Shown: positions 1-26,134 of the stretch, piece after piece
Layout: every line of letters starts with the position of its first letter
Numbering within the stretch: position 1 is the stretch's first letter
Notes under the pieces: generated by a model
Database searches by the model: none
What the model was told of the DNA's origin: nothing
Seen by the model: the letters and a program-made list of their open reading frames with translations, nothing else
Source: Desulfobacteraceae bacterium Eth-SRB1
GTDB taxonomy: Bacteria; Desulfobacterota; Desulfobacteria; Desulfobacterales; ETH-SRB1
Reading direction: 5' to 3'
Assembly (NCBI GenBank): GCA_004193555.1
Contig: RPGP01000040.1
Span: forward strand, 687,127 to 751,126
DNA: 64,000 bases
Made by a program: the position numbers and the translations under genes

Positions 1-3000
1 CTATCGGAGTTGAAGTATTCGGATCAATGTAATCCACGCTTACGTTCGCGCCGGCAATGGCGGTCTCATCCGAATCGCTCACTGTTACCGTAAAGGTATC
101 TACTGGAATGATGTTGAATGGTCCGAAAACCCTCTTGTTTAACCCGTTGTCCTCGGTCAAAGCAGCATCGCTTTCCACAGTAACCCGGACATAGAACTTC
201 TTGACGGCATCCACATCTGCCGGAGTAAAGATTTCAATCGCGGTACCTGAAGCACTCCATGTACCGTAGTCCGCAGGCGCATCAACTTCAGATGTCGCTG
301 TTTCCGAATCCAGGATTTCCCATGTATAATCACCATCGGCCCCGGACAACGTCAAGGTCTGCGGATTAGCGCTGCCGTCCAGTTTAGTCTCGGTAAATGC
401 CTTGCTGTCCGGTGTTAACTTAATCGGTACATTTACCTCAAAGGAATCCGTAAATCCCGCATTATCGGTCACTGTAATCGTGTACACACCGGCAAATGCC
501 CCTGTAGATGGTGCAACAAAAGCGTAGGATGCGCCGGTACCACCAGTTACAGCAACAGGACCGGTCACAGACCAGGTATAAAGTGTGTCGTCACCGCCTT
601 CCACGGTATAGGTAGTCGAGGTTGCACCTGATTCAATAGTCGGGGTTTCTGTTGGTTTGTTCGTAATTTCCACCGTAGCATAGACGGTAACAGTCGCCGT
701 ACCCTCAATATCGTATCCATCCGTCGCTGTAATGGTGGCTGTCTGTGTAGCAGTCACAGCCGCCGCTGTAAATACACCTGTCTCCGCATCAATAGCGCCG
801 GCATCGGCGTTATCGCAAGTCCAGGTATAACCGCCAGCCTTACCACCCGTTGCGGCAAAGGTCTGGGTGCCTGAGGCCTCCAAGCTCTTCGTAGCCGGGG
901 TGACGCTAATCGGATCGACAATCTCAATCTGAGGACTTACTGCATAGAAACCGTTCTCTGTACCAAAAACGCCGTATGTCGCGTCTCTTACCTGAATATT
1001 ACAAGTCCCGACCGCAACCGGAGTTACACCGCCGCCGTCAGCGTCGACAGTAGCCACAGCAGTATCGTTGCTCTGGAACTTATATGTGCCAGTGCCACCG
1101 GTTACGGTAACACCTTTAGTCGTATCACCAATAGCGATACCTGCCTCAGATGTCGGCCAGGTAACGGCAAGAGGATTGTAGATATAAATATCAATTGTAT
1201 CGGTCAAATTGTCAGGATCATTTAAGTCAGTGAGCGTCAGCGTATCCTTCTTAAAGGTTTCGCCTTCGCCAAGACTAATGCTTGCCGGGGCTGTATAATT
1301 AACAGTATCGGCGGTTGTGCTGTCGATTGCACCCACACTTGCCAGGTTCCAACGATAATTTCCGTCGGTGCCACCCACGCCACTGAAGGCTGCCGTAGTC
1401 GGTGTCGAACCGCTGGTCACAAGATGAACACCGGTTCCGTCAACAAAAAGAGCTGCGGGCGAATCCACATTAATTGAAAAGTTGACCAGAGTGAACAAAA
1501 TGTCACCAGAGTTTGTCAACCCTGTAGATTCCGCATGGACGTTAGTATACTGTGGTGGATCAGTGACATCTCCCGTTTTGGTTGTAATCGTTGCCGTGGC
1601 CACACCTTGAGCATTAGTAGTAGGCGAGGCATCATCAATGACTACATAAGTATTGCTGCTTATAATCAGGTTGATAGTAGTGCCCGCATTAGCCACCTGA
1701 TTGTCAAACTCGTCATAAAGCGTTGCAGTCAAAGTTGCACTGCCTTTTTGATCACTTGCCAGAGTCGTCTTAGTAGCGATAAGTCCTACTTTAGAAACAT
1801 TTGCAGCATTAACCGTGATCGCTGACTGAGTACCGGTGATCGTGCCTGTTGTAGCATCCGTAGCGGTTACGGTCTGTTCACCGGCGGTCTTGAGGGTCAC
1901 GCCACTTGCAAAGGTTTTTGTGCCTGAATCGCCGCCAACAAAGGGATAATTACCAGGCAACGTAGCATTGGTATCACCGGATGTGAAGGCAACTGTCCCG
2001 GTATAACCGGTTGCCGTATTCCCAAACTCATCCTTGGCCGTTACTATTACATCACTGGCAACTCCCGCAACCACAGGATCAGTAATGCCTGTTACCGTCA
2101 ATGTACTCGCCGCGGCCGGATTTACCGTAATCGCAGACTGGGTTCCGGTGATCGTGCCTGTTGTCGTATCCGTCGCTGTTACCGTCTGCTCACCTACAGT
2201 CTTTAGAGTAACACCACCGGCAAAGGTCTTGGCGCCGTTGTCACCTGTCAGGAACGTATAGTCCGCGGGAACTACCTTCTGATCATCTGAAGATGTGAAA
2301 GCAACAGTACCGGTATAGCCGGTTGCCACGTTGTTAAACTCATCATAGGCCGTTACCTTCACATCACTGGCGGTACCGGCCGTTATCGGATCAGAAATAT
2401 TCTCTACCAGCAGCGTATTGGCCGCAGCCGGGTTTACCGTAATATCTGTCTGAGACCCCGTGATACCGGCGTTCGCAGTATCTGTTGCCGTTACGGCTTG
2501 CTCCCCGGCCGTCTTTAGGGTGACACCACCGACAAAGGTCTTGGTGCCGTTGTCACCTGCCTGGAAGGTGTAATCAGCATGAAGAACAGGCTGAGGATCT
2601 CCTGGTGCGGTGAAGGCAATTGTTCCCACATAGCCTGTGGCAATGTTATCGTACTGGTCGTAGGCCGTAACTATTACATCACTGGCAACTCCTGCCGTCA
2701 CCGGGTCGGTGATACCGGTTACAGCCAATCGTGTTGCATCACCCTGCGTGTAGGTTACAGCTTCTGTATCAGTTATTGCTGTTCCGCCACCTGCTGCGGA
2801 TATGATCTTGCCCTCTGCCTTGGTTGACCTGATAAAGCCTGTTGCCACACCGGATGCATTGGTCGAACCAATTGAGGTAGGTCCGTTGCCTTCAGTGGCG
2901 CCGTTGATATAATTACCAGATCCGGTTATGGAAAGGGTGACATCAGTATTTGCAACCGGATTGTCATTGGCGTCTTTCAGGGTTACGGTAACAGTGATAC

Positions 3001-3874
3001 CTTCCCCATCACCGACGCCAACCGGTGTGGTCGCCTTGTCAACTTCCACGGTAGAATTCGCTGCGCTTACGACGCCGGCAGTAAAATCAACCGTCGTATT
3101 TCCCGTTGCATCACCGGCAACGCTTGCAGCCGTTACCGTCGCGGTACCCGCTGTTGTGGCGGATTGGAGCGTAAAGGTAATCACACCGCTGGAGGTCTCC
3201 ACCTGAGTACCGGCTGTCCCGGAAGGATCCGCATCGGCAGTTGTAATTGTTCCCAGATTTGTGGCAACCGTGATTTTGGTGCCGTCGGGAACATTATCAC
3301 TCGCGGCATCCTTAATCGCCGCACTGGTTATCGTCGAGGTTGACGTGCCATCTGCTGTTATAGATGCAGGGCTGGGGGTAAGGGTAATTGTACCGGTGGG
3401 AAGACCACTTAATGAGAAAGTAGCATCGGTGGTCTGGGCAGCGGCAATATCATCGACAAAAGCCTGTAAGGCAATGGGTGAATTGGAAGCGGCATCAGCG
3501 TTAACTGTAAAGTTGACTTTAATTAAGACGCCTCCCGATGTAGTCGTAACACCTCCCGAGAAATCCGAACCGCCGATTCTCACATAAGCAACTGGCCCTG
3601 TAGCTTTAACCGAGCCATTGACAAGGGAAAAATTTTCACAGATAGTGTCTGTCTTGTCAACTGACGCATAAGTCAATACATCTCCATTGTAATAGAGGTC
3701 AAACCCCCATGCGTCTAGATTGGTTACTGCCGAATCGATATTAATATTGAGCGTTATTGCATCGTTAGGAGCACCCGTAGCGTTATCTGAACTCACATTA
3801 AGGGCCAAGGCACTGGTCGGTAATAAAAATACAATGACAATCGATATTAGCATCCTAAGGTTTGTACGATTCAC
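1..3874 (-). CDS. Giant exported cohesin-like / Ig-repeat protein (N-terminal 1291 codons, C-terminus off window)
   Basis: I translated the minus strand by hand: it stays open from a GTG at 3874 to the window edge. A GGGAGGAA ribosome site (3881-3888) sits 6 bases upstream. Residues 1-23 are a signal peptide ending at ALA. Residues about 24-155 resemble a cohesin fold (start LNVSSDNATG, with the WGFDLYYNGDVLTY strand and a VLIKVNFTV strand), the module that binds dockerins. Invasin-like (Big_1) Ig domains follow, then three near-identical repeats of about 104 residues (TAGxASDVxVTAYDxxxN), then further Ig/PKD-like segments. It lies 27 bp downstream of the dockerin protein at 3901-7158 and is probably co-transcribed. 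The role is likely a surface scaffold or adhesin. The family is inferred from sequence pattern, and the C-terminus (anchor or more repeats) cannot be seen. Confidence 0.8.
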   Translation of the reverse strand, partial: MNRTNLRMLISIVIVFLLPTSALALNVSSDNATGAPNDAITLNINIDSAVTNLDAWGFDLYYNGDVLTYASVDKTDTICENFSLVNGSVKATGPVAYVRIGGSDFSGGVTTTSGGVLIKVNFTVNADAASNSPIALQAFVDDIAAAQTTDATFSLSGLPTGTITLTPSPASITADGTSTSTITSAAIKDAASDNVPDGTKITVATNLGTITTADADPSGTAGTQVETSSGVITFTLQSATTAGTATVTAASVAGDATGNTTVDFTAGVVSAANSTVEVDKATTPVGVGDGEGITVTVTLKDANDNPVANTDVTLSITGSGNYINGATEGNGPTSIGSTNASGVATGFIRSTKAEGKIISAAGGGTAITDTEAVTYTQGDATRLAVTGITDPVTAGVASDVIVTAYDQYDNIATGYVGTIAFTAPGDPQPVLHADYTFQAGDNGTKTFVGGVTLKTAGEQAVTATDTANAGITGSQTDITVNPAAANTLLVENISDPITAGTASDVKVTAYDEFNNVATGYTGTVAFTSSDDQKVVPADYTFLTGDNGAKTFAGGVTLKTVGEQTVTATDTTTGTITGTQSAITVNPAAASTLTVTGITDPVVAGVASDVIVTAKDEFGNTATGYTGTVAFTSGDTNATLPGNYPFVGGDSGTKTFASGVTLKTAGEQTVTATDATTGTITGTQSAITVNAANVSKVGLIATKTTLASDQKGSATLTATLYDEFDNQVANAGTTINLIISSNTYVVIDDASPTTNAQGVATATITTKTGDVTDPPQYTNVHAESTGLTNSGDILFTLVNFSINVDSPAALFVDGTGVHLVTSGSTPTTAAFSGVGGTDGNYRWNLASVGAIDSTTADTVNYTAPASISLGEGETFKKDTLTLTDLNDPDNLTDTIDIYIYNPLAVTWPTSEAGIAIGDTTKGVTVTGGTGTYKFQSNDTAVATVDADGGGVTPVAVGTCNIQVRDATYGVFGTENGFYAVSPQIEIVDPISVTPATKSLEASGTQTFAATGGKAGGYTWTCDNADAGAIDAETGVFTAAAVTATQTATITATDGYDIEGTATVTVYATVEITNKPTETPTIESGATSTTYTVEGGDDTLYTWSVTGPVAVTGGTGASYAFVAPSTGAFAGVYTITVTDNAGFTDSFEVNVPIKLTPDSKAFTETKLDGSANPQTLTLSGADGDYTWEILDSETATSEVDAPADYGTWSASGTAIEIFTPADVDAVKKFYVRVTVESDAALTEDNGLNKRVFGPFNIIPVDTFTVTVSDSDETAIAGANVSVDYIDPNTSTPI
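1799..2745 (-). repeat. Three tandem ~312-bp coding repeats in the left-edge giant protein
   Basis: Three consecutive units (about 2425-2745, 2113-2424, 1799-2112) encode near-identical Ig-like domains. Each has TAGxASDV, then ATGYxGTxAFT, then KTFxxGVTLKT, and ends with xSxITVN. The high similarity at the DNA level indicates recent duplication and makes the region prone to recombination and to assembly collapse. Confidence 0.85.
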
Positions 3875-3900
3875 TTTTTATTCCTCCCTAACCCAAAAAA

Positions 3901-6900
3901 TTATTGTGAAAGATATTCATTAAAAATATCAACTGCATCTTGAGGCGTAACATTATTATCTCCATTGAAATCGGCCCTAAATCTCTGTTCCGCTGACAAA
4001 CTTTCCCATCCAACCAGATACAGGTTAAAAGCATCTACGGCATCCTGAGGGGTAATACTGCCATCACCACTTACATCCCCCTTGACCCCTGTTACATACT
4101 CCGCTGATTTATGATCCCCATCAAGGGTGTTGCCGGCGACATCGGTAATCGTTGTGGACACCACCACGGTGTAGGTCTGGCCTGCCGTCATCTCGGTCGT
4201 CGTCAGGCGGTAGGTATTGCTACCATGGTCGGCCGCCGCCGAGATGGTTAATCCGGAAATGGAATATTTAGAGGTGGTCGTGCCACCGATTATCGCCTCG
4301 CTGAATATCACGTCCACATGTGTTGTGTCAACGTAGGACGCGGAGCTGACCTGCGGGGCTGTGCTGTCATAAGTCCAGTTGAACTGGTCAGAGGCAGTGT
4401 TGCCGTTGCCCGCTGCGTCAGTAAACGCATCTGCTGCTACATCAATGGTGCAGGCACCATCTGAGGTTGGTGTAAACGTGGCGGTGTAAGTTGTGCCGGT
4501 ACCGGAAAAACTGCTCAGTGAGCCATTTGTCACCGTGATATCGGTCACAGCAAAATTGGTTGTCGCCTCGCTTGATGTAAAAGTAAGCGAGAGAGTAGCA
4601 TTGTTGGATGTAGAGCCGTCAGACACCTCTGAAGCTCCGATGGTCATGGTGGGGGCTGTGGTATCTATGGTGAATGTATTATTTGTCGCGGCTTCATTTG
4701 AATTGCTTGCCGAATCACCGCCATTTGAGATGGTAACTGTGGCCAAGCCATCGATATAGGTGCCGCCCGTAGCGGCAACGATAGTGTATGGATATGTCCA
4801 GACTCTTCCTGAATCTGCTGCCGTCATATCGGTTGCAGATATATCGGTGTCTCCCTGTTGAGTTAGGGCAATCTGCGGCGTTGATACCGGGGTTTCGCTG
4901 AAAGTTGCCGTAATGGTCAGACCGCCTGCCTTGAACGGACTGGTTGTATTGGATCCCTGGGTGTATGTCAGAGCTACCGTGGGTGGCGTGGTATCTATCG
5001 TGAATGTTCCGCCGCTACCGATGGAGATACCGGCATCTGCAGATGTTTTTAAAGTAACCGTCGCTGTTCCATCCTTATAGGCGGTGCCATCCTTGGTCGT
5101 GACGGTATAATCGTAAGTCCAGCTCGTACCTGAACCTGTCATATTTTCATCTGTTTTATCGGTGGTTCCCTGCTGGTTTATTGAAATCTTCGGGGCACTT
5201 TCCTGCGAGGCGCTCAAAGCGGCAGTGATTGTAAGAACGCCAGCCTTGAATGGGCTGGACGTATTAGACCCCTGGGCGTATGTAATTGTGGCGCTCAAAG
5301 ATTCTGTATCTATCGTAAATGTGGAGCCACTTGTGATGCTGATTGCGGTTCCGGTAGAGCTCTTAATTGTTACAGTGGCCACTCCATCATCGTATCCCTC
5401 TTCTGTGGCCGCATGAACCGTATAGGGATAAATCCAGATTTTGTCATCGTCCGATGGTGTCATATCGGCTTCAGCAATATCCGTGGTTCCAGACTGATTA
5501 ATGGAAATCGTAGGGGCCGCCGACTGAGATTGTGTGAAGGTCGCGGTAATCGTCAAGCTCCCCGCCGGGACATGATCCGTATCCGAAGCGCTGTAGGTCA
5601 GCCCTGCGGTTGTCGTCGCCGAGTTTACCGTAAATCCGTCTGAGAGCGTTCCGGGATCGGTCCCAACATTGTTCACATTCACATCATAGGTATTTGGAGT
5701 AATGCTTGCAGGAACAACACAGGTCAACTTTGTTGACGGGGTGTCCCCATCAAGAGTTACTCCGGTACACGAAGTAGTCCCAATTTTTACCGTCGCGCCG
5801 GATCGAAATTTTGTCCCCTCAATTGTCACAGATTGTGTGCCGTCATTGGTCATGCTTGCGGGTGAGATACTTGCAACTGTGGGAACAGGGTAACTGACCG
5901 TAAATGCCTCAGGTTCAATGTCATATTGAGAATCAGGATTGGTTACCTTGACGTCATAGAGGCCTGTAACCTTATCTGCGGGAACAACAGCGGATATTTC
6001 AGTCGCACTCTTCACGTTTACGCTGGTGCATGAAATAGCATCTTTTCCTGATACCTCAAGGGTTACCAGGGTTGTGCCTGTTGTCTGGAAGTTTGCGCCT
6101 GCAATGGTGATTGTTGTAGTACTGTCATTCGTTCCGGATGAGGGAGAAACCGATGTAATAGCAGGCGCCGGAAGCTTTATCTGGAACCCTCCGGCTGTTG
6201 CCAGGAAAGTCCCGGACTGGCTGTCCGTGTTTGTCACTACCACATTATAGGTGTCAACCGTCTTCCCTGCCGGAACGGTAGCCGTAATGGATGTTTTTGA
6301 AGAAACGGCCACACTCGTTAAATCGATATTCGAGTTGACACCATCAGGGTCTCTCAACTGGACGGAGGCCCCGGTGAGAAAGCCGGTTCCCGTTATTATT
6401 ACGGATTTATCCGTTGCATTACTGGCTGAAGTTGGCGATATGGCGGTCACCGTGGGAGCGGGGTTTTTCACTGTGAAACCATCCGCCAGAGGTTCGCTGG
6501 TACCCCAGTCCGTGGTAACCGTGACATTATATGATCCGGCTGCCTTGTCCTTAATGGCATAGGTTGCGGTAAGGCTGGTAGAACTGACTACCGAGATATT
6601 GCTCAGCGCGGTTGTTCCGATCTTTGCCGATATGCTGTCAAATGCAGTCCCATCCAGTTTTTTAAAGTTGGTACCCGTGATGGTTACGGGAACAGTATCG
6701 CTGCTGTTCAGACCGTTGTCCGGTTCAATCTTTGTTACTGTCGGGGCGGGGGTTGTATCAATGATGATAGGGCCGAAATGCTCGGTGGTTGTCCAGTTGG
6801 CGCCGTCATCCACAGCCCGCATATGAAGATACCATGTACCATCTGCCAGGGTACGTGTCACGGCAAGGGCGCTGACAACACCCGAATAATCCTCATTTCG

Positions 6901-7324: not shown

Positions 7325-10300
7325 CTACTCCGCGACAAGTGAGAAATCTATATTCTCAACATCAGCATCCACATAAGCGATTTGACTTGCGTCGACATAT
7401 GTGGCTGCACCATCATGCCACATATCGGTGTAACCTGCCGCCTTGACCACAATCTTGAAAGATTTATCATTCGGCAGGTTGGTGAGTGTATAAGTTCCGT
7501 CGACAGCACTCGCCGTGGTACTGTTGTGGAAGGTTCCGTCCGAGGTGTCAAAGGCGGCCACTATCACTTCTACATCGTCAATGAACTGGGCATCACTCGC
7601 CTTCGTCACAGTTCCCGAGATCGAAAATCCCGTCTTAATATGAAGATCAACCCCTGCTACGCTGACAGCTCCTACAACCACATCCTTGGAAATAAACCCG
7701 TGGTTACCGGTGGCAGCGCTAACAGTATAAGTCGTATTTGGTTTCAGGCCGGTTATGATGAAGTCACCAATGTTACCGGTGCCGGAGGTCATGGCCCAGT
7801 TGCCCACACCTAAGTCACTGCTCCAGGCGTCAACCCAAACGCCTCCAAGACCTGCGTCGTCATCATTATGAAGGTTCCCGCTGATGGAAACACCAGCGCT
7901 CAGGATAAGATCAACCGTATCGCCGGTGCTGACACCGCTTTGAGAAGCATTCATGTATTCCCAGGACCAAGTTGAAACAACATAATCTGTTCCTGCCAGC
8001 AAACCGTTGATGGTAAAGTTGCCATCGGAATCAGTCTCAGCCCCGCCCCAGGTCCACGTAGTCGGCGACCAGGCATCGACCCAGATATTCGCCTTTCCAA
8101 CTCCACTTAGTTCAACCGTCCCGGTGATACTCAGACCGCTTCCCAGTGTGAGGTTCTTTTCGGTTGCGTTTCCGCTCGCGCTCGAGATATCAATCTCCGT
8201 GGCATTCGCCCAGTCGGTAGTAGAATTATTCGTTGCCCCGTCTTGATAAAAGACATGGACATACTCCTCAGACCAGACATCGAGCTTGTAACCGCCTCCT
8301 GGAATCAAACCGGCGATCTTATAGGTGCCGTCATATTTCACCGGACATCCATTTCCTGACATGGCAGTGTCCGACCAGGCATTTACCCAGACATTATAGT
8401 AGTCCGTGCTGCCTTCCGGAAGGGTTATTGTGCCGGAGATGTAATTTCCAGAACTCAGGTTGAAGTTGATGCCTGTAGCATCTCCTCCGGAAACATCCAC
8501 CCTTGTGGCATCCATCCAGTCGGTCTTGCCGTTGTAGAACTGATGAGCGTAAGTATCGGACCAGATATCCACCACATAGTCACTGGCAGGGGCCAAGCCT
8601 CCAATGGTGTACACACCACTGCTGTTCGTGCTTGCTCCACCCCAGCAGCCAGCCGTCTCGGACCAGGCATTTACCCAAATATCAGCAAGCGGGGTATCCC
8701 CTGTCTTTACCGTCCCGGTGATGGAATTGCCTGAACTAAGAACAAAATCGATATCCACCGCGGACCCTGAAGAAACATCTACCGTATTCGCGGCCCCCCA
8801 GTCGGTCACACCATCGTAGAACATATGGACGTAAGCTTCTGTCCATACATCGACTTTGTAGCTGTCCGATGAGGGAAGCCCCTTGATGACATAATTTCCA
8901 CTGGCATCTGTCTCGGCTCCGTTGCCGCCCGCATCACACCAGGCGTTAACCCAGGCATATTGAATCGGGTCTCCACTAACGTTTCTCACGTTTCCGTAGA
9001 TAGTGCAGCCTTCAGAAAGCTTCATATTGATGCCGGTCGCATTATCTGTTGTGACATCGATCGCGGTTGCCTGCATCCAGTCTCCGGTCGTGTTATTAGG
9101 TAGAGCATCTTTATATAATACATAACCGTATTCCTCTGACCAGACATCCAGCTTGTAATCGCTGAAGGCATCGATGCCCTTTATTATAAAATTGCCGTCC
9201 TGGTCAGTCGGTTCTCCTCTTCCGCACCGGCCGCTATCAGACCAGACATTGACCCAGGCATTTGCAATACCATTATCGTTTGTATCCGTAATCCTTCCGC
9301 TGATCAACTTTCCGGCGGTAAGAGTGAAGTTGATATCGCCAATATTGCCTCCAGCCGTGGAAACGCGATCGGCGTCTTCCCAATTCCTCTTTCCATTGTA
9401 CACCTGGTAGCCAAACTCCTCGGACCAGATATCCACTACAAAGTCAGAGGCATCGGCAAGACCGGTAATTTCATATGTCCCGTCCCCTGCAACCACACTG
9501 CCACCCCAGGATCCTGCCGTATCCGACCAGGCATTTACCCAAAGGTTGCTCAGGTTGCCACCTTCAGGAACCGTCACAGTTCCTGATATGGTTTTGCCGG
9601 CGCTGAGGACGAAGTTTATTCCTTCCGTGTCCCCACTTTCAACAACGATGACTTCGGTTGCCAGCATCCAGTCGGAAACTCCGTTATAGAAGACGTGCTG
9701 GTAATCCGGTGACCATATATCCACCTTGTAATCAGTCGCAGGAACCAGACCTGTGATCTCGTAAGTTCCTACATCCCCGTTCCAGTTGTTAACAGGTGCA
9801 CCCATGCCGCCCGCCGTATCAGACCAGGCATTGACCCAGAGGTCGTTCTTATTGCCGCCTGAAGGAACGGTGACAGTGCCCTTTATGCTGCTCCCCGCAG
9901 AAAGGCTGAAATCGATGCCTTCTTGTGAAGCACCCTTTATATCCACAAGGGTGGCCTGATCCCACATGGTGACGCCATCGTAGAACTGGCTTGCGTAGTC
10001 TTCTACCCAGACATCAACACGGTAATCATCAGCAGGAGCAAGGCCCTTGATGACATAATTGCCGCTGGCATCTGTGGGCTCGCTACGCCCGGTCATCTCG
10101 CTGTCGGACCAGGCATTTACCCAGGCATTCTGGACGGGAGTTACGCCAACCGTAACCGTACCCGATATACTGTAGCCGGAGCCAAGCGTAAAGCTTACTT
10201 CAACGGCCGCAGAGCCAGACGTTTCTGTTGTAACAGTAGCACTCTGGTTGGCATAGTCGGGATGCCAGATATTGACGTTATAGATGGTATTAGCCTTCAG

Positions 10301-13300
10301 ACCGCCTATTGTGAAATTACCATCAGAATCGGTGTTTGCGCCGCCCCATGAACCTGTCTCGGACCAGGCGTCAATCCAGATATACGCAACTCCCTGCCCG
10401 TCAATCGTAACGGTTCCGGAAATTGTTACACCTGCAGAAAGGGTGAAATTGATCTCAGTTGCAGGTGTATCAGCGGTCACAACAACAGGATCGGCATAAA
10501 ACTGGTTCTCGTATTTATCGGAATTGATATCAACCTTGTAGTCTGCGGCCGGTTCAAGCCCTCTGATGGTATATGTAACGTCACCTCCGCCTGCAATACC
10601 GTTTATTTCCGTGCCGTTGCCGCACATATTCAATTCAGACCAGGCATTTACCCAGACCCAATCGCCTTCGGCAAGTCCTGAAATCGTTCCGGAAATAGAT
10701 GACCCACCGGAAAGGGTGATATTTATGGTGTCATCTGCGGTTCCATCAGTAACATCCACCGGAGTAGCCTGCATCCAATCGGAGGTGCCGTTCGGGTTTG
10801 TATCACTGTAAAATTTCTGGCCGTATTCATACGACCAGACATCTATCTTGTAGTCTGATGCCGAAGCAAGGCCGGCAATGACATAGGTCCCATCTGTGTT
10901 GACGGGAGCGCCGCACCCAAATCCCGTGGACTCTGACCAGGCACTGACCCAGCAGTCACGATAATCTGTCTCGGTAGCGTCGTCAGGCAGCGTTATTGTC
11001 CCTGAAATGGAAACACCGGCAGACAGCGTAAAGTTGATGTTTCCTACGCTTCCACCGGTAACATCTACCAGATCCGCCTGCATCCAGTCATTTTGTCCGT
11101 CATAGAATTGGCTGGGCCATCCTTCCTTCCAGACATCCACACGATAATCAGACGCAGCAGCCAACCCGGAAATGGTATATTCTCCATTAGCATTCGTGGA
11201 TTCTCCCCTGCCGAACCAGGTCGAATCGGAATAAGCGTTGACCCAGACTCCTGCAATCCCCGTTCCGGTTTCGTCCGTTACGCGGCCGGAGATTGAATTG
11301 CCTGCCGAGAGATTGAGGTTGATGCTTACGGCATCATTAATAGTAATATCCACAAAATCGGCATTCATCCAGTCGGTCTTTCCGTCATAAACCTGATATG
11401 TATAACTTTCGTGCCACATATCAACCCGGTAATCAAAGGCAGGCACAAGACCGTGTATCGTATATTCTCCATTCTGGTCAGTCTGTGCGCCGTTTCCTGT
11501 CATGGCTGAATCGGACCAGGCATTGACCCATACATTGGAAACAGGTGTGCCACCAGCCAGAACCAAGCCGGAAATCGACTTTCCTTCCGCTACGATAAAA
11601 TTAACACCCGTGGCCGCTGCCCCGTCTGATGTTGCCACCAGCGTCGCCTGATCCCATATAGTTGTGCCAACGGCGGTCAGCGCCGAGTAATCATTGCCGG
11701 CAGGAGCCGCATCACCAGGAGCGTAACCAGTATACATATAGAACTGGTGCGCGTATTGATCATCCTGGATTTCCACACGGTAGTCGGTTGCCACAACAAG
11801 ACCGGGGATCGTGTAGTTTCCATTAACGTCGGTTTCCGTCCCGCCGCAGCCACCACTCGATTCTGACCATGCATTGACCCACACACGGCCAATACCGTTT
11901 TCCGCATCGTCTTTGACTGAACCCGAGATAGACACACCGGCGCTCATTACAAAGTTTACACCGGAGGCGCTGTTTGCAAATAAATCCACCTGTGTCGCCT
12001 GCATCCAGTCGGAAGTTCCTACCGGCGGAATTCCGCAAGCAGAATAATCTACTACACCGTCAACGGGTGCAGATAATGTACAATCATCAGCCTTCTTGAA
12101 GTGCTGGTGCGCATAATTCTCAGACCATACATCAACCTTGTAATCCGACGCGGCTACGAGGTTAGAGATGGTATAATTTCCGTCGACATCGGTCTGGGCG
12201 CCAAAGCCGAACATGGCCGAATCCGACCACGCGTTGACCCAGATATTGGGTATCGGAGTTGTCCCATCCGGTTCATATACTGTTCCGGAGATGGTCTTAT
12301 CGCCGCCTTCCGGGCCGAAGGTCACCGTAAAGGTAAAGAATTCGGACACGGATACGTTTTCGTTGGCATCAAAAGACAGAACCTTCCACTGGTATTCCTT
12401 TCCTGCAAAGAGAGGTGGTCCCATGTATTCAACAAAAGGAGTTGGGATGCCCCACATCTCCCACACCATCGCACCGTACTCGTCAAATAACTGAACGGCA
12501 TAGAAAACCGCCCCTGTTGAAGCGTCCCAGGAAGCAATCGGCGGCATCTGTTCGCTGACCGTGCCATTGGAAGCAAAACTGCTCATGATACCGCTCACCA
12601 CGGCAGTAACCTGAACCGGGTCACCGCCGGCAGCAAGGTTGATGTTAAAGGTATAGATATCGCCAACAGTCGGCGCCGAGGCGAGAGAAATGACATTTGC
12701 CCACTCACCGTCATTCGGCTGAAAGTCATGATGCATTCCATCATCAAACAGCGAAACCGGATCGCCGGTAATCGCCGGCCCGGTGACTGTTACCGAAGAA
12801 ACTTCATCTGGATCAACCTCCAGACCAAACTCAAGCTTATAGCTGGTAGTGGTTTCGTCAGCACTTGCGATAGTCTCGACCCAGACATCGTATTCTTTCT
12901 GGTTTCCATAAATTTTCCAGGTATCTCCCTCTTTTACCAGAAACATGGTGAAGGATTCGACGTCCGTGAAGGACTCACCCCACTGATTATAAATTTCAAC
13001 GACCTCAGTCTGGAAACAGCTCGCATTGGTTTCGTCGATCATCTGAATATTAGTGGCGTACAACGTAACGGAGATCGCCTCATTTAGATCCTGTTCCAAT
13101 TCGATCCTGAAGTCAGCCTTGTTCTCGCCGTCGTGCAGATAGACAGCCGAGAAGAACGCCATGATCGCATCCAAGTTGGCAGTGCTCGGACTGCCGATAT
13201 AGGTTTGCAGGGCCGCATTGAGATTTGCATACAGCGTCAAAATGGTATCTTCAGCCGTACCGGCCGCAACCACGGTTACGGTGACCGTATCCGGCGGACT

Positions 13301-15373: not shown

Positions 15374-15475
15374 TTTATCACCTTCCCGTGACAAGCCATT
15401 TTTAACCTATATTTCTTTATTATTTTTTTGACCAGATTATATATATATATATATTCAAGTTTGAAAACGTATGCC

Positions 15476-15979
15476 CTACGGTTCATAAACAATGGAAAAA
15501 TGTTTGATCCTTTTGCCGATTACATCGTAGAAAGACGTTGCTTTCATGTCTTCGACCACAGCCCTTCCTGCCCCGTCATATCCTTCTAAAAGCATAAATT
15601 TGCCGTCTCCAAAGGTTGCCGAATCCCAGGACAGCCGCGCAGTACGTTGAACAAACGGATCCCCCATATTCCCATGTGGATCGATTCCGATAATCCAGAG
15701 GTGCCTGGACATGCCCGTACTACGAATATCGCGGTACATGGATGACCAATTCGAATCAAACAACACCATATTGACACTGTATTCCGGCGGTGCCGGAGGT
15801 GACGGCAGAGTCGCAGCTTCCCTTTCAACGCCGATGATGACCTGGCTAGCTGTCACACCACCTATGTCCTGGCCGTCGGCACGGATGACGCTTTGCCATG
15901 AAAATGGTGTCTCTTCCGCATTCGCGGAAATTGACAAGCACACTGCCAATAACAAGATTATTATCCACGTTTTTTTCAT
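15476..15979 (-). CDS. Small exported protein made only of the island's shared ~145-residue module
   Basis: The protein has 167 residues with a signal peptide (ends ANA). The mature part aligns by eye to the N-terminal module of the 2682-residue protein and to the middle of the cohesin protein at 16105. Shared features are IGV near the start, then a central W, WIIGIDPHGNMG, TARLSW, LLEGYDGAGRAVV and EDMKAT, ending with an aromatic strand (FSIVYEP). It lacks the usual RxDDG...VKQA segment, which here reads DGQDIGG...VTAS. I do not recognise a named family. It lies between two genes that carry the same module, so it is probably an island component acting outside the cell. Confidence 0.8.
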   Translation of the reverse strand: MKKTWIIILLLAVCLSISANAEETPFSWQSVIRADGQDIGGVTASQVIIGVEREAATLPSPPAPPEYSVNMVLFDSNWSSMYRDIRSTGMSRHLWIIGIDPHGNMGDPFVQRTARLSWDSATFGDGKFMLLEGYDGAGRAVVEDMKATSFYDVIGKRIKHFSIVYEP

Positions 15980-16104: not shown

Positions 16105-17850
16105 TTATTGGGTCTGCACAGTGAAGTCACACTCCTCACCGACTTTGACCCAGTAGCCCTTCCCTGTAGTAAACCCGGTAAGCACCTCCTGGAAAACACC
16201 ATCGAATCCGAATTCGGCCAAAATCACACCGCCCGGAACCGTCGTCGGAGACGCCGAACCGTTTACCGCGCCGATCAAGTGCCATCCGGGGGCCAGTAAA
16301 ATTGAATAACTATCGAAACTCGACCCTATAATGGTATATGTCGCACCGGCCGGCACCTTAACCCAGTATCCTGTTCCGGGTTCCACGGTTGTTGCTTCCT
16401 GAAAGGTCCCGTCGAATTTAAACACCGCCAGTGCATCAGGAAATAATGTCGCTACAGTTGTATCAACCGGTGTAACCGGCAGTGAAACCAGATTCCATCC
16501 GGCAGTCAGATTTAAATCCACACTGATGGAATACGAAAATTCGACGGTAAAGAGCTGATCGGTCTGGCCGGTGACAGCATATGAAGTCGTCGTTCTCATA
16601 TCGGAAACAACGATTTCGCCGGTTCCATCAAAACCGCTCCTCAATCGGTAGAAACCGTTGGGGTTGAACTCTGCAGTGGCCCAACTGAGGGTTGCAGTAT
16701 AATCAGTCGACGGTATACCGACATTACCCTTTGGATTAACATTGATAACCCAAGCATACGCCGTCTGACCGTTTTGCAACACATTTTTGTAAAGTTTTGT
16801 CCAGGAGACAGTGTCCTCATATACAGCGATATCCACCGTCTGCTCGACCGCCATGCCCGGATGCGGAGTTGTATCCGACACCGAGTCCACGCCGATATAG
16901 GCTACGGCCTGTTTCACATTCAGTGATCCGTCATCTCGTTCGGCCGTTAGAGTAGCCAGCCAGGCCACTTCCACACGGTTGTCCGTATCCGGATTGTAAC
17001 CGGTTCCATTCGGATCGTCCTGAACCTTCGGGTCATACGTTCCAGCATTGATATATTCCTGAAGGTCAGAATACCCATCCTTATCATAATCAGAGGTCGC
17101 ATCCGCAGTGGTCAAATTGCTAAAATGGGTATTTTCCCAATCATCAGCAATGCCATCACTATCCGAATCTACTGAATCTCCGCTAAACGTAACCGATCCG
17201 GAAGTTATTGACGTAACATCAATAACGGGGAAAGCGGCTGTTAAATCCGTCTCCTCGGCAATTGCGCCGATAAGATAGGGAATGGTTTCAGGAGCATCAT
17301 CTGCTGTCCCTGCAATGCCATCAACACCAAGACCATAGCCAGCATCGGTGTTATTCAAAGTGGTTGCGGTAACGCCGACATTGTAAGCTGTTGCTGATGC
17401 TCCAGAATTTAGTGTAAAAAATAGAGTAAACAGCGTTGTGTTAGAGGCGCTTGTCTCCGCAGTGCAACGCGCGGCAGCAATCATAGTCCCGGTGGAAACA
17501 TTATTTGCGATTAGAGGCTGGTAATAAATTATGCCGGAACCAGAAGGAACCTCGACACTCGTCAGCGGCAAAGGATCTGGTACAGGGTCTAGTGCGTTCC
17601 ACTGACTTGCGAATATATCAAAAAAAGTGCTTTGAATATCTGTCAGGGTAAGCGCCGTTGTATTATATGTCACGGTAAATGCGGCGCCCGCAATACCAAC
17701 GGGGTTATCCACCGTGACAGGCACCTGGAGCGTTGCATCTGATGCCCCGCTATTTGTACCCACGGTTAACGTCACAGCAAAAGCGCTTGAGGCTGTGAAT
17801 ATCATAAATGCCATAATAGACAATAGTGTGATCGTTCTTTTTGTATTCAT
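16105..17850 (-). CDS. Exported cohesin-like protein with calcium-binding segment and shared novel module
   Basis: The protein has 581 residues. The start ATG at 17850 has an AAAGGAGC site; an upstream start at 17886 would spoil the signal peptide. The signal peptide ends SSAFA. Residues about 26-175 look like a cohesin domain (VTLTVGTNSG start, GIAGAAFTVTYN strand, TLFTLFFTLNSG strand). A thrombospondin-3-like calcium segment follows (DSDSDGIADDWE, DYDKDGYSDLQEY). The island module comes next (nucleotides about 16521-16962; VNPKGNVG, TATLSW). The C-terminus has two copies of a domain with GWNLVSLPV / GWHLIGAV and GYWVKV motifs. It is probably a surface receptor for the neighbouring dockerin proteins. 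Cohesin assignment is by pattern only. Confidence 0.85.
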   Translation of the reverse strand: MNTKRTITLLSIMAFMIFTASSAFAVTLTVGTNSGASDATLQVPVTVDNPVGIAGAAFTVTYNTTALTLTDIQSTFFDIFASQWNALDPVPDPLPLTSVEVPSGSGIIYYQPLIANNVSTGTMIAAARCTAETSASNTTLFTLFFTLNSGASATAYNVGVTATTLNNTDAGYGLGVDGIAGTADDAPETIPYLIGAIAEETDLTAAFPVIDVTSITSGSVTFSGDSVDSDSDGIADDWENTHFSNLTTADATSDYDKDGYSDLQEYINAGTYDPKVQDDPNGTGYNPDTDNRVEVAWLATLTAERDDGSLNVKQAVAYIGVDSVSDTTPHPGMAVEQTVDIAVYEDTVSWTKLYKNVLQNGQTAYAWVINVNPKGNVGIPSTDYTATLSWATAEFNPNGFYRLRSGFDGTGEIVVSDMRTTTSYAVTGQTDQLFTVEFSYSISVDLNLTAGWNLVSLPVTPVDTTVATLFPDALAVFKFDGTFQEATTVEPGTGYWVKVPAGATYTIIGSSFDSYSILLAPGWHLIGAVNGSASPTTVPGGVILAEFGFDGVFQEVLTGFTTGKGYWVKVGEECDFTVQTQ

Positions 17851-18875: not shown

Positions 18876-19295
18876 TTAACAAATCGAACTTGCTTGAGGA
18901 GGAGGTGAATCTGGCGAAAATAAAATAGATTGATAATAGAAAGATTGCCCGGCCGGTTTAGAATAGGTAGCCTGGGCAAATAAAAAATCAAATGAAGATA
19001 TGAGATAAGGTGAGTCAAGGGTGGGTGAAGCGGTTACGGATTTTGCATTATCAGCAGGTTTGATAACTGTCTTTAAACCTGCAAGCGCCTGCAAAGCAGA
19101 GACGGCATTTTCAAAGTTTGCCGCAAACGTCTCAGGGTTATCCGCTGTGCGCGCAAAATCCTGAATATGCAAAACCGCATCCTTAAGGTCCACCCTGCTG
19201 TCCCGGTTTGCGTCTTCAGGAATAAAAGAAGGAAGACCGGATACCAGCACCGCAAAAATAAGAATTGCGCTTAATATATGTCTAACTGTCTGCAT
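18876..19295 (-). CDS. Small exported dockerin-like protein
   Basis: The protein has 139 residues from the ATG at 19295 (MQTVRHIL); an ATG at 19313 would add 6 residues. It has a signal peptide. Residues about 26-75 contain a good calcium loop, DANRDSRVDLKDAVLHIQDF, and a second, degenerate helix (FENAVSALQALAGL) that lacks most calcium ligands, so it is a half-strength dockerin. The remaining C-terminal tail is low complexity and ends in SSIC. It appears to be the first gene of the operon that continues to the left edge, 35 nt downstream of a predicted promoter start. Confidence 0.65.
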   Translation of the reverse strand: MQTVRHILSAILIFAVLVSGLPSFIPEDANRDSRVDLKDAVLHIQDFARTADNPETFAANFENAVSALQALAGLKTVIKPADNAKSVTASPTLDSPYLISSFDFLFAQATYSKPAGQSFYYQSILFSPDSPPPQASSIC

Positions 19296-19822: not shown

Positions 19823-19887
19823 TTACCACAGAACGCAGAGGACGCAGAAACAACTATTTGTAATTTAAGCAAAAATTCCACTGGAAT

Positions 19888-21529: not shown

Positions 21530-24500
21530 CTATCTCAATCCAGCAACATCTTGCAAAATATAAATAACCTCGGCCAGGCCGATTTTGGCATCGCCGTTGA
21601 CATCCGCGCCGGATGTTGCATAATTGGATCGGATTCCCGCCGGGTTCATTCCAACCGTTACCTGCAGAGCAAGAATTGCATCGGTTAGGTTAACATTACC
21701 GTCGTCATTTACGTCACCAATTACAATCGGAGGCCAGTTATTGGCAGTGCAGTTGTTATCCTCGTTGAGTTCATCGATTTCACCGTTAATGTCGGCACAT
21801 ACCGTTACCTCATCTCTTTCGCCACTCAAGGTCACTGTCGTGAAAGAACTGGAATAGGTTTCACCGGGAGGCAGAGCTATCGGAACGGCTTTTTGCTCAA
21901 TAGCAACATTATCTACAGTCAGACCAACATCGTGCCCTGCCAGCGTCTCGATATTTCCCCTGTTCTTGACCGTATAAGACACTGTGTAGGTTCCAGCACC
22001 CTCATTTACCCATTCTTCGCTCACCTGGGTAACTTCCAGATCGGGCTTCTCTTCTGTCGGGGCAACCGCTTTCTGCAGAGTCAAAAGTGCCCAGTTTGTA
22101 GACAGCATCCTGTCCCCGCTATCGAAGGAAGAAACGGGCCACGGGCCATCGGCGTTTTGCTCCGATTTCAGGGCTTCGGAGAAGTCATAAAACCAGTCAA
22201 TGGAATCGATCTGGCTTATGCCGAGAGCCTCCAAACCCTTCATAGCTGTGTATGTAGTGTGATAGCATGAAGGATTCCAGTTCCACCCGGAGTTCCAGTG
22301 CCTTACAATGTAATCAATCGCATCCTGTACCCTCTCTGTCGTCTTCGTATCACCCACAAACGCCATCTGCTGGAGAAGGTTGCCGGTTCTGAGAATATTG
22401 GCGCCCATATCATTTGGATCAGTGATATCGGAATAATGAGAGCCTCCATCGGCATCATCGCCATCAACATCGTCCTGGCTATAATCGATCCAGTAATTGA
22501 GTTCTGTCCTGACAAAGCCCGGAATAGTCAATCCAAATCCATCTGGCGGATCTGCCTCGGCATAGGCCAGAGCAAGGGTCACCCATCCTGAGTTGGACTG
22601 GTCGCTTCTTGTATTGTCATTGTTTGTAGGCTGATAGTTCCACCCGCCCCTGCCGTAGCCCGAGTCTGTCTGTGCCCAGGCCAGATAATCGACCGCATCC
22701 TGCAGGACTTGCGTATAGGTCCGGCCGTGTACCGGGCTGCCAGGAACATTTACACTAATGCCCGGGGCATTGCTGGAGGCAATAGCCATCGCTACAATGC
22801 TTGTATAGTATATGCTGTGCCATTCATCGGGAGCAGTGAAATAAACGCCAATGCCATTGCCGTCTCCATCCGGATTGCCGGCCGGTTGGCTACCAATAGC
22901 AGTTGTATAGGCATTGGCGAAGATATAGTTAAGGCCGTTTTCGACAGCCGTGTGATATGTATAAGAGGTGTCAAGGGGTGACAAACCGCAACTTAAGGCA
23001 TGCTTTTCAAGGTTCAGGACAGCAAGGGCGGTTTTTGCCAGCGCGTACTGATCTCCCCATGAACCGTCCGGATTCTGGTTCTGAGACAGCCACTGCAAAC
23101 CATTGCCAATGGCCGCGGCAAGTTCATTTATAACTGTAATGTTAATGCCGGTGTTGCCGTTAGTCTGTACTAAAAGTGGATTCCCCGCGTAGCTTCCCGT
23201 GTAATCCGCTGGTGACGACGCGCCGCTACCGTCTTTATCCCAACTGGCAAAGAGGTACACATGGCCGTCTGCGGCAAGATTGGACAGGGTGTAAGTCGCG
23301 TTGATATCGGTGATGGTGGTGCTGTCGAGGAGCCTGTCCGAAGAGGGGTCGTCCCCATCATAGGCGGAGATATAGATATCACCGTGGCCTGATTCAAAAT
23401 CATCACAAAGGATATTTCCTGAAACCGAAGCCGCCTGCAGCTCAATGTTTAACTGAACATCAATATTCGTAAGGTTGGTCCCCTCTGCAAGGGTGATCGG
23501 ATTCACGCTATATGCGCCAACCCAGTCACCAGGAGTGCGACTTCCGCTTCCGTCTGAATCCGCATCCCATCGAGCATAGACATAAAGCTCGGCGCCAACG
23601 GGCAGATTATACAGCGCATACTGACCCGCATGGGAGAGAGGCCCCCCATAGGACACCAAACTTCCACCCGGGAATGGGCTGTCGTATGCAGCCACGTAAA
23701 TCGTTCCTCCTGATATATAACCGCTTGAGGCCGGCTCAATCTGGCCGGAGACGGATCCCACGGGGTTGTCTTTGGAAACGTAGAAGGGCCGTTTCGAGCT
23801 GGTGGAACGATTTTCCGGATCTGTCTCTTTATCAGACACATCAACACGCCACTTATACGGGTTGTTTACTTTGAGAATGTCGGCAGGCACGGTAGCAGTG
23901 GTGGCTGTTGATCGTTCTGATTTATAAATAAGCTTGCCGCTGTAATCAAAGATCAAAATTCTATAGTAAACAGGAACTGCTGTCTCATCTGTCACAGGCG
24001 ACCAGCTAAAGGTCGGGGTCGTGGTTTCCATATAACCATGATACCGCGGTGAAAATATATACTCAGGAATAGGCAGACGATTGAAAGTAAATGTTTTATC
24101 TACCGTTAGATTACTCCCATCTCTACCGTCCACAACCGTAAAGGTGTATGTCCCGTTAGGGAGGATGCCGCTCTCGCTGTGATAATAGGCGCCGTCTTGC
24201 CAGAGATCATAACCGGTAAAGGTAGATGAAAAACCCTCGGGACCTGTTACGGTCATTGACCCGACATCCCATGGCGCAGGCCCCTTTATCTTGATACGAA
24301 ACTGGGTTTTATCCTCATCAGGAAATATTCTACTCCTGACAAAGGCTCCCATGGCAAGAGGTTCAGCAGAAGCCCCTGTGGAAAAGCCCTTCCATGAGCT
24401 TGAAGATAAGTTGTTGGGACTAATGCCGCTCTGGCTGTCAAACACCTGAACCTGCCATTTGTAAGCGGTATCGGGCTCAAGAACGCCTTCCGGCACAGTC

Positions 24501-26134
24501 ACAGTAGCGTCAGGTAACCTGTCAGAGGTATAGATGGTAACCTCTTTGTTCCAATCCATTATATTAACGCGGTAATAAAGAGTACCGATTGTTTCGTCTG
24601 TAACAGAGGCCCAGCTCAAGGTGGGTGTGGTTGTGTTCACATAAGCGCTGCCTGCCGGAGAAATCCCCGTGGACATATCAACCACATCGATCAGATTGTG
24701 TGTAAAATGTTTATCCGCATGATAATCTTTCCCGTCCCTGTCCTTTAAAACAAAATCATACCACCCGCAGGGAAGGGTTTCCGATATACTGTATTTGTAC
24801 AATGTTCCGAATCGGTAATGGGCTCTTATATCCTGCTCAACATCAAAGTCATACCTTAAACCATCCGGGCCATAGACCGTGAGTGATTCTATATCCCACG
24901 GGGCCAAGCCGTTCACCCAGCAGAAAACGACCGAAAACGGTCCGCCGTCACTGTTTCCTCCCCAGATAGCAACCCTATCAATATAAGCATCATATTCCTC
25001 AGGTGGTAAGCCGTTAGGAAAGATGCCGGAAAATGTTCTATCCGGAAAGGAGCTCATGCCCTTTATCAATATCTCATCAATATAGGGATCGTGTATAAAT
25101 GCGGGCAGATAATCCCGGATAGAGATGGGATCGTCAAAAAATTCGCTGAAATCGACACGGACAACGTCTTCTTCATCATCCATATCCACGGGTTGCTGAT
25201 TGGTTATCGAATATTTGATGTCTGCCAGATAAGACCTAAAATCAGTCTCATCCGTTAAATCCTCAGGATCAATGGAAAACAGATCATCCGTCTGATCGTC
25301 TGCTTCATTCCTGATAAAGGTGGAGGCATCATTGTACCAGTCAGTTGCAGCAAGGACAGCAGGCTTTGCTTCGCCAATTTTGGTAGCGCCGACACCACCA
25401 GTTAAAAGAGTGAGAAGGTTTGGATATGCATCGAGGAGATCATTATTGACATTGAATATATCATCGTTGATTTTGGCAACTATTGCGTCTATATCCGCAT
25501 TGAGATCATACGAATCTATGATCAGGATTAGCGCCTTTGCCGCATAGAGGAGCGATTTGTAAAGAAGGACATCGCCATAGTCGACCTCGATGTCGTTTAA
25601 TTCCCCAGTCTCTGTAGTAAGTAATGTTATACCATTAATGAAGGTTTCACTCGTGATATTATTAAGATTTGCGATTGCGCCGTCAATCTCAGGTATGATA
25701 ACGGATTGCAAAAACGTCTGAACATCCGTGCCCGACGGGCTGTCCGATGGCAATATGATATTTCCATATATATCTTCAGGGATAGATGCCGTCCAGTTAA
25801 ACAGGTCTCTTCCTGCTGCATCCATACCAAAGCCGTCAAGAAGCTCCTTTACGTTTTCGATTGGAGCATCAGCGGTATAGGTCACATTATTATCCAAAAG
25901 AGCTGCAAGGCGTGTAACCGCATAGAAGAGATTGGCTTCCTGGTCTGAAGGATTTGCTGTAACTGCTGCCTCAAATTTTGCATTGGCCTCAAGCAGCTTC
26001 GAATAGGTCGGGTTACCGTCATTAAAGAGCAAGGCGCGACCCTCGGTAACAGAAGCATAAGCTGGAGTTGTTAAAGAAAAAAAGAATACGGATAGCCAAA
26101 AGATCGTGACAAACCTGCACATTTTTCTTTTCAT
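21530..26134 (-). CDS. Exported dockerin protein with FN3-like, alpha/alpha-toroid (prenyltransferase/squalene-cyclase-like) and CARDB domains
   Basis: The protein has 1534 residues. The ATG at 26134 has a GAGGGAG site. The signal peptide ends TPAYA. Residues about 28-290 are helical, TPR-like. Two FN3-like units follow (YYRVNIMDWN, YYRILIFDYS), then two carboxypeptidase-regulatory-like units. Residues about 1030-1350 form repeats of a toroid fold (GLQWLSQNQNPDGSWGD, WVTLALAYAEADPP, AMKGLEALG, ALKSEQNADGPWPV), as in prenyltransferase, squalene-cyclase and complement-type domains. The DxDD cyclase acid motif is not evident, so catalysis is doubtful. A CARDB-like domain precedes the C-terminal dockerin (DVNDDGNVNLTDAILALQ and DVNGDAKIGLAEVIYILQ). 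It is a candidate dockerin partner of the island cohesins. Confidence 0.86.
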   Translation of the reverse strand: MKRKMCRFVTIFWLSVFFFSLTTPAYASVTEGRALLFNDGNPTYSKLLEANAKFEAAVTANPSDQEANLFYAVTRLAALLDNNVTYTADAPIENVKELLDGFGMDAAGRDLFNWTASIPEDIYGNIILPSDSPSGTDVQTFLQSVIIPEIDGAIANLNNITSETFINGITLLTTETGELNDIEVDYGDVLLYKSLLYAAKALILIIDSYDLNADIDAIVAKINDDIFNVNNDLLDAYPNLLTLLTGGVGATKIGEAKPAVLAATDWYNDASTFIRNEADDQTDDLFSIDPEDLTDETDFRSYLADIKYSITNQQPVDMDDEEDVVRVDFSEFFDDPISIRDYLPAFIHDPYIDEILIKGMSSFPDRTFSGIFPNGLPPEEYDAYIDRVAIWGGNSDGGPFSVVFCWVNGLAPWDIESLTVYGPDGLRYDFDVEQDIRAHYRFGTLYKYSISETLPCGWYDFVLKDRDGKDYHADKHFTHNLIDVVDMSTGISPAGSAYVNTTTPTLSWASVTDETIGTLYYRVNIMDWNKEVTIYTSDRLPDATVTVPEGVLEPDTAYKWQVQVFDSQSGISPNNLSSSSWKGFSTGASAEPLAMGAFVRSRIFPDEDKTQFRIKIKGPAPWDVGSMTVTGPEGFSSTFTGYDLWQDGAYYHSESGILPNGTYTFTVVDGRDGSNLTVDKTFTFNRLPIPEYIFSPRYHGYMETTTPTFSWSPVTDETAVPVYYRILIFDYSGKLIYKSERSTATTATVPADILKVNNPYKWRVDVSDKETDPENRSTSSKRPFYVSKDNPVGSVSGQIEPASSGYISGGTIYVAAYDSPFPGGSLVSYGGPLSHAGQYALYNLPVGAELYVYARWDADSDGSGSRTPGDWVGAYSVNPITLAEGTNLTNIDVQLNIELQAASVSGNILCDDFESGHGDIYISAYDGDDPSSDRLLDSTTITDINATYTLSNLAADGHVYLFASWDKDGSGASSPADYTGSYAGNPLLVQTNGNTGINITVINELAAAIGNGLQWLSQNQNPDGSWGDQYALAKTALAVLNLEKHALSCGLSPLDTSYTYHTAVENGLNYIFANAYTTAIGSQPAGNPDGDGNGIGVYFTAPDEWHSIYYTSIVAMAIASSNAPGISVNVPGSPVHGRTYTQVLQDAVDYLAWAQTDSGYGRGGWNYQPTNNDNTRSDQSNSGWVTLALAYAEADPPDGFGLTIPGFVRTELNYWIDYSQDDVDGDDADGGSHYSDITDPNDMGANILRTGNLLQQMAFVGDTKTTERVQDAIDYIVRHWNSGWNWNPSCYHTTYTAMKGLEALGISQIDSIDWFYDFSEALKSEQNADGPWPVSSFDSGDRMLSTNWALLTLQKAVAPTEEKPDLEVTQVSEEWVNEGAGTYTVSYTVKNRGNIETLAGHDVGLTVDNVAIEQKAVPIALPPGETYSSSFTTVTLSGERDEVTVCADINGEIDELNEDNNCTANNWPPIVIGDVNDDGNVNLTDAILALQVTVGMNPAGIRSNYATSGADVNGDAKIGLAEVIYILQDVAGLR

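Follow-up and report, generated by a model that had tools for sequence, protein, structure and literature searches.

What would a sulfate-reducing bacterium do with cohesins and dockerins if it builds no cellulosome? Non-cellulosomal cohesin-dockerin pairs are already known, sulfate reducers included, and the role of these modules outside cellulosomes is still largely open. In the accessible parts of three papers, cohesin and dockerin proteins of sulfate reducers are reported as putative adhesins (PMC10553843), while the other two treat ANME (PMC9012536) and Cloacimonadota (PMC8542988). The question is raised again by Desulfobacteraceae bacterium Eth-SRB1, in a stretch of 64,000 nucleotides called here the window (contig RPGP01000040.1, C40:687127-751126, from an assembly of 3.34 Mb that is 98% complete). 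DsrK and DsrP are both encoded within the window, which therefore comes from a sulfate reducer, as a sequence-only reading of it had held. That reading described five exported proteins on one strand, two with cohesin-like domains and three with dockerins, and saw in them a possible dedicated surface assembly linked to a type II secretion system (T2SS).

The analysis reported here supports a non-cellulosomal, class-matched cohesin-dockerin system. The reading that we prefer, with a probability of roughly 60%, is that of a surface system with two specificities, in which the exported protein P2 would dock on the stalk protein P1 and the dockerins of a second class (LQ) on a stand-alone cohesin, B. 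What appears to be new is the split into classes, together with the link to secretion. Two classes that co-occur nearly one to one turn the vague label of "adhesin" into specific binding predictions.

The locus and its modules

The five proteins (P1, P2, P5, P7, and P8) are all present on the minus strand, each with a hydrophobic leader as judged by eye. The locus is not confined to the window: it begins near C40:657-658 kb, some 29 kb outside the window's first position. This outer part encodes, also on the minus strand, the rest of P1, a 223-aa protein with a C-terminal LQ-class dockerin (C40:662693-663364; PF00404 27.3 bits, cut-off 22.9), a 1215-aa protein with a CFI-box-CTERM C-terminus (C40:658945-662592; NF041770 97.0 bits, cut-off 40), the 159-aa stand-alone cohesin B (C40:658227-658706; PF00963 39.5 bits, cut-off 24.1), and a protein assigned by Pfam to Peptidase_MA_2. 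A scan for promoters and terminators returned about as many sites as in shuffled sequences.

P1 (positions 2-3874 of the window, minus strand) is an exported stalk with an N-terminal cohesin (about 3428-3799) followed by Invasin_D3/Big_1 Ig repeats. Its gene runs past the window to a total of 1800 aa and ends in a CFI box at C40:685715-685921 (NCBIfam NF041770, 94.2 bits, cut-off 40). Taken as a piece, the N-terminus matches PF00963 with 33.5 bits over profile positions 2-124 (cut-off 24.1), and no such cohesin is reported when P1 is scanned as a long protein. When modeled with AlphaFold2 from an alignment with 18 relatives, the domain reaches a pLDDT of 87, and its best match in the PDB has a VIA-align Z of 17.2, with an rmsd of 1.9 over 126 residues. 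Among the 50 VIA-align matches listed, all are cohesin-bearing (Z 17.2 to 11.5), and the best 50 Foldseek rows are cohesins or cohesin-bearing scaffoldin chains. The domain is thus, on its predicted structure, a type-I-like cohesin with a complete jelly-roll fold. A search of PDB sequences with a P1-type profile gave 30 distinct matches at E 1 or better, of which 24 are named cohesin, scaffoldin or anchoring protein. The other six carry enzyme names (two "endoglucanase", four NagJ), and within this group 5nrk, 5nrm, 2jh2, and 2w1n have titles that refer to cohesin modules. Relatives of the P1 cohesin were sought in plasmids, where none was found.

The second cohesin-like domain foreseen by the sequence-only reading lies at the N-terminus of the exported P5 (16105-17850, minus strand; domain about 17251-17775). 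PF00963 scores 26.8 bits on the whole protein (profile 1-122) and 38.2 bits on the piece, with its best stretch at 1-51. A three-row P5 profile found a single match among PDB sequences, an A. fulgidus cohesin at E 0.88. Relatives of P5 were sought in genome contigs and viral contigs, where none was found. By sequence comparison the domain may be a divergent cohesin, an assignment that is uncertain.

Turning to the dockerins, the gene of the exported P2 (3901-7158, minus strand) has its stop codon 26 nt ahead of the P1 start. The protein carries TIG/Ig repeats and a C-terminal dockerin (3904-4077) of the class called TP here. PF00404 gives this dockerin 29.6 bits as a piece and 21.7 bits in the whole protein (cut-off 22.9). 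The alignment bears out the claim of two complete calcium loops, and these repeat identical residues (TPQD twice). Repeated loop residues are expected of dockerins with two binding modes. The title of PDB entry 2vn5 speaks of such a dual binding mode. Predicted with AlphaFold2 from an alignment with 12 relatives, the P2 domain reaches a pLDDT of 94, and each of the 24 entries in the VIA-align list contains a dockerin (Z 9.6 to 5.8). Foldseek also gave 24 matches, with a weak best E of 0.085: 16 are dockerins (the first 15 and row 18), and the other eight are polcalcin and unrelated proteins. According to its model, the P2 domain has the dockerin fold. For P1 and P2, then, the models match PDB cohesins and PDB dockerins, and the match to unrelated Ig families that was to refute the earlier proposal did not appear for these two domains.

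P8 (21530-26134, minus strand) is exported and combines Ig, terpenoid-cyclase-like, and CARDB domains with a C-terminal LQ-class dockerin (21533-21727), which keeps both calcium loops in the alignment and scores 28.3 bits with PF00404 as a piece and 20.2 bits in the whole protein (cut-off 22.9). Since the P1 cohesin is unreported and the P2 and P8 dockerins fall below cut-off in whole proteins, these calls depend on the use of pieces. Two of the three dockerins originally described are confirmed in full. The third, in the small exported P7 (18876-19295, minus strand), is only half of an LQ-class dockerin (about 19128-19217): its second calcium loop is absent, PF00404 gives it 12.5 bits in a six-frame search, and neither the whole protein nor the piece has a Pfam match.

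Over the whole 3.34-Mb genome, PF00963 finds three places (E 1.5e-9 to 2.3e-7), which sit in three separate reading frames, and PF00404 finds three above its cut-off (E 2.3e-6 to 1.3e-5). All six lie on one strand within 51 kb of C40, so that the clustering first noted stands for these Pfam places, in a locus some 29 kb longer than was visible, but not for every dockerin: the LQ profile finds further LQ dockerins on contig C1 near 537, 556, and 696 kb. The statement that all dockerins of the genome belong to this locus accordingly holds for PF00404 above cut-off only. Five weak PF00404 matches on C1 had been taken for noise, with 9 of 14 control genomes matching PF00404 at E<1; this was rejected, four of the five being LQ-class dockerins. 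Decayed LQ dockerins, with short frames, internal stops or half domains, were also seen at C1:536860, 556227, and 1005143 and at C40:800880. By eye, decayed copies lie near PIN-type-toxin-like genes or mobile fragments, and they are probably decayed cargo genes.

A cellulosome was considered and rejected. The PF00963 search found no multi-cohesin scaffoldin in the genome, and no glycosidase catalytic or carbohydrate-binding module (CBM) family exceeds its Pfam cut-off in the 17 distinct locus proteins that were scanned. The absence of glycosidases and CBMs described from the letters alone therefore holds for these 17 proteins. One Ig domain of P8 belongs to a family named after a rhamnosidase.

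Only two CFI-box C-termini occur in the genome, those of P1 and of the 1215-aa protein, both in the locus, and no paper on the "CFI-box" was found in the collection searched. The name of the family suggests that the box may serve P1 as a surface anchor. Among the loci examined, the arrangement was seen again once, in G073. There (G073:C237:14001-18000, L088, positions 1073-3550), a gene ending in a half dockerin with one loop is followed after 45 nt by a cohesin gene with a CFI-box end of 102.2 bits. This pair represents a third sequence class (NALDAALIIRYL).

Two matched classes across genomes

Cohesin modules are not rare in the order, since PF00963 matches 57 of 291 genomes (E 0.01); PF00404 matches 91, and 47 have both. 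Class-specific profiles were therefore compared: A1, built from four rows of P1-like cohesins, and A2, from seven rows of P2-like TP dockerins. At E 0.001, A1 found 42 of 389 genomes, with 15 scoring at least 42 bits and the following one 40.6. For A2, at E 1e-4, the number was 20 of 389, with 15 at 41 bits or above and a drop to 36.8 after them. These thresholds, like the 145 bits of profile A7 used for B, were set after the score gaps had been seen. P1-type cohesins and TP dockerins, each in 15 of the 389 genomes, occur together in 14 (Fisher test, 1e-23). The exceptions are G144 and G015, in the latter of which a contig of 4463 bases ends inside the cohesin. When the looser E limits given above are used instead, A1 also matches 17 of the 20 TP genomes. 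The association remains at 3e-13 without the seven genomes that built the profiles, which make up half of the 14 shared ones.

The two modules are also close neighbors: for 22 of 24 TP dockerins, a P1-type cohesin is encoded on the same strand no more than 10 kb away. In other genomes the two often share one polypeptide, so that inheritance as a single cassette would give the same pattern. A broader pairing within 12 kb, among the places listed (150 cohesin and 152 dockerin), gave 44 pairs, 42 of them on one strand; two of the dockerin places, from the source genome and below the cut, were added by hand and account for two of the 44 pairs. A single reading frame holds both modules in five of the 14 pairs examined. 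Scanning genome contigs with A2 returned 10 loci, in records named as Desulfobacteraceae or Desulfococcaceae (five), a Desulfatirhabdium MAG, a Deltaproteobacteria MAG, a KSB1 bacterium, and two labeled only as "bacteria". Of the pairs compared, the closest comes from the MAG labeled Desulfatirhabdium (L166, which seems to be contig G047:C876), with identities of 32% for the cohesin and 56% for the dockerin. As a side observation made by eye, the P1-type clusters of two genomes (L169, L174) share further genes, for a protein that starts with ...IPS[ST]FNPVGSGA and for a lipoprotein-like protein.

The second class pairs B with the LQ dockerins, represented in the source locus by P8, the 223-aa protein at 662 kb, and the decayed P7. 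Of 291 genomes, 32 have B, each with a single copy that scores at least 145 bits. Below it come a fragment at a contig start (61 bits, G099) and then values of 36 or less. Its orthologues have 24 invariant columns over 12 genomes, and no relatives were found in viral contigs. With a limit of E 1e-6, LQ dockerins were found in 52 of the 291 genomes, including 31 of the 32 with B, the exception being G230 (Fisher test, 1e-26; 3e-16 without the 16 training genomes). Because B is missing from 21 of the genomes with LQ dockerins, and G230 has B without them, B is not their sole partner. At most 21 LQ candidates were scored per genome, so that a count of 21 means at least 21; the corresponding limits were 13 for PF00963, 21 for PF00404, 9 for A1, 15 for A2, and 11 for B. 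B is the single Pfam cohesin of G172, G099, G030, G245, and G228, whose LQ dockerins number 20, 14, 5, 2, and 3, respectively. G135 has one Pfam cohesin and 17 LQ dockerins. In G159, G053, and G128, where Pfam reports no cohesin, B is accompanied by 5, 6, and 4 LQ dockerins. The best-scoring LQ dockerins are usually terminal, 22 of 27 ending within 15 aa of the stop.

Does the matching reflect class, or simply the presence of any such module? Over all 291 genomes, even crossed classes are weakly associated (2e-5 for P1/LQ, 3e-5 for TP/B). When only the 106 genomes with a signal of either module are considered, the matched classes remain associated (2e-15 for P1/TP, 8e-12 for B/LQ), whereas the crossed ones hardly are (0.12 for P1/LQ, 0.04 for TP/B). 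Collapsed to genera, in tables counted by hand, the matched signals persist at 1e-17 and 7e-17, Fisher tests being blind to phylogeny and the genus collapse not being a tree-based test. Two matched cohesin-dockerin classes are thus supported by sequence comparison, and their class-matched distribution is the strongest new result. The proposed dedicated surface assembly is upheld in part, as a non-cellulosomal, class-matched system; it is not one assembly, because the dockerins form two classes and only P2 fits the class of P1.

The stand-alone cohesin and type II secretion

The T2SS cluster of the window (27654-41107, plus strand) is the divergent neighbor of P8, from which it is separated by a Crp/Fnr-type regulator (26492-27244, minus strand). 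GspI, N, C, D, and E exceed their NCBIfam cut-offs and J, K, and L fall under them, in a scan of 20 window ORFs that did not include F, G, and H. Genes for an ATPase and a TPR-like protein lie between C and D. The ATPase found between gspC and gspD, at 35235-36161, resembles the XrtA/PEP-CTERM-associated ATPase (287.8 bits, below the cut-off of 324.5). In the source genome, B is not beside T2SS genes; its neighborhood has pilQ at a distance of about 4 kb and pilM at about 8 kb. On its own, the window cluster is therefore weak evidence. The link to secretion that had been drawn from the window is thus merely one of divergent neighbors, but a better one runs through B, outside the window and in relatives.

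In eight of 31 loci, B has a T2SS gene no more than 7 kb away, versus none of 19 P1-type loci (Fisher test, 0.015), the control being 19 of the 20 P1-type loci, searched with the same queries and with G015 left out. The gene order in G056 is gspD-gspE-B-crp, and a homologue of the Crp/Fnr-type regulator adjoins the stand-alone cohesin in this genome and in G126. G005, from the window organism's own family, has B next to gspF and pseudopilins, and on its opposite flank B is joined by a homologue of the peptidase gene. B is flanked by gspC/gspN and gspF in G128, and lies near gspC in G030, near pseudopilins in G053, and near a GspE-type ATPase (T2SSE + MshEN) in G131, G180, and G159. The remaining 23 of 31 loci have no T2SS gene near B, over spans of 3.3-14 kb, some shortened by contig ends.

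These neighborhoods suggest, tentatively and with the balance against it, that B may be a T2SS accessory and the LQ dockerin a C-terminal sorting tag, B, as one small exported cohesin, capturing many tagged exoproteins for export or surface delivery. The disproportion in G172, where the only Pfam cohesin is B and the LQ dockerins number 20, has a bearing on this proposal. If B does capture LQ-tagged exoproteins, the plug would be a secretion adaptor rather than a scaffold; if it serves the T2SS, the plug would sort proteins as well, and exported proteins in many relatives of this sulfate reducer could be recognized by their LQ tag. Neither a T2SS-linked stand-alone cohesin nor two matched classes in sulfate reducers were found in the literature searched, which covered few subscription papers.

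A two-specificity model, its rivals, and known systems

In the two-specificity model, P2 would be exported without a visible anchor, and its TP-class dockerin would fold on calcium and plug into the P1 cohesin. The CFI-box C-terminus of P1 would hold the Ig stalk on the cell surface, with the cohesin as its distal tip. The LQ dockerins of P8, of the 223-aa protein (C40:662693), of the decayed P7, and of the other proteins encoded on C1 would not use P1. They would be C-terminal tags for B, encoded beside T2SS genes in some relatives, and B might act either as a T2SS adaptor ahead of export or on proteins already exported. Binding, the part played by calcium, anchoring by the CFI box, and T2SS export are the elements that we infer in this model.

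Could the partners instead sit on different cells, their modules holding consortia together? The accessible parts of two papers lend this some weight, with cohesin and dockerin proteins in syntrophic sulfate reducers and their ANME partners, which in one partnership are highly expressed by both members (PMC10553843, PMC9012536). However, the genes of P1 and P2 are adjacent, with 26 nt between them, and their classes match across the same genomes, as would suit partners of a single cell; pairing between cells appears unlikely. The class associations might also have arisen by horizontal transfer of cassettes among relatives with large genomes, without any class-specific binding. The patchy distribution of the P1-type/TP pair over many families, the tandem cohesin-dockerin polypeptides of several genomes, and the large size of many B and LQ genomes all speak for such transfer. 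Yet among the 106 signal-bearing genomes it is the matched classes that are strongly associated and the crossed ones hardly so, and smaller genomes (G245, G228, G005, G137) keep both B and LQ, which makes transfer alone an improbable account.

Vestigial domains, in which the Ig-like modules of the stalk and the degenerate EF-hand repeats have lost their binding, would fit the missing calcium loop of P7, the divergent cohesin of P5, and the LQ remnants with stops or half domains elsewhere in the genome. They would fit poorly with the calcium loops kept in both P2 and P8, the confident predictions for the P1 and P2 domains (pLDDT 87 and 94), and the 24 invariant columns of B over 12 genomes, and this explanation is very unlikely. 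The two-specificity model is retained here, and may be set beside known systems.

A. fulgidus reportedly has a dockerin in the gene next to that of its cohesin. This non-cellulosomal cohesin (PDB 2xdh) is close to the P1 fold (Z 16.5, 21% identity over 120 residues); by comparison, P1 is a long stalk with a CFI-box tail in a sulfate-reducing bacterium, and the source genome has two matched classes. In sulfate reducers partnered with ANME, adjacent cohesin and dockerin domains likewise occur with CARDB or Ig domains and are proposed to act in aggregation; the accessible part of that paper mentions no separation into classes, T2SS-tied stand-alone cohesin or CFI box, all three of which are reported here (PMC10553843).

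Type I complexes of clostridia and Acetivibrio (5nrm, 6kgc, 1ohz, 2ccl) resemble the P1-P2 pair in the fold of both partners and in having two calcium loops that repeat the same residues, as P2 does with TPQD. They differ in that PF00963 found no multi-cohesin scaffoldin in the source genome and the 17 locus proteins scanned have no CBM or glycosidase catalytic family over cut-off.

Stand-alone cohesins also exist in Ruminococcus flavefaciens, a cellulosome-forming species. Two of its PDB entries, 4n2o and 4wkz, are titled autonomous cohesins. Unlike these, B occurs once per genome and is linked to LQ dockerins and partly to T2SS genes.

Several other proteins of the locus attract attention. 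Three of those encoded on C40 (658945-662592, 662693-663364, and 663583-663987) share by eye a domain with the pattern GDxVAxFDxxGVLCG...GQYG...DD...DEGA, which is joined to an LQ dockerin in one of them and to a CFI box in another; no Pfam family was found for it in the two short ones at E 0.05. A second domain recognized by eye, around PHPGMAVEQTVDIA...NPKGNVG, appears in full or variant form in the proteins at 7325-15394 and 15476-15979 and in P5. The 167-aa one of the three has no Pfam match at E 0.1, and the 2689-aa one also contains 11 stretches of CarboxypepD_reg. Inside the locus, at C40:672094-679581, a 2495-aa protein combines a FecR domain with a long Glu/Ala-rich stretch.
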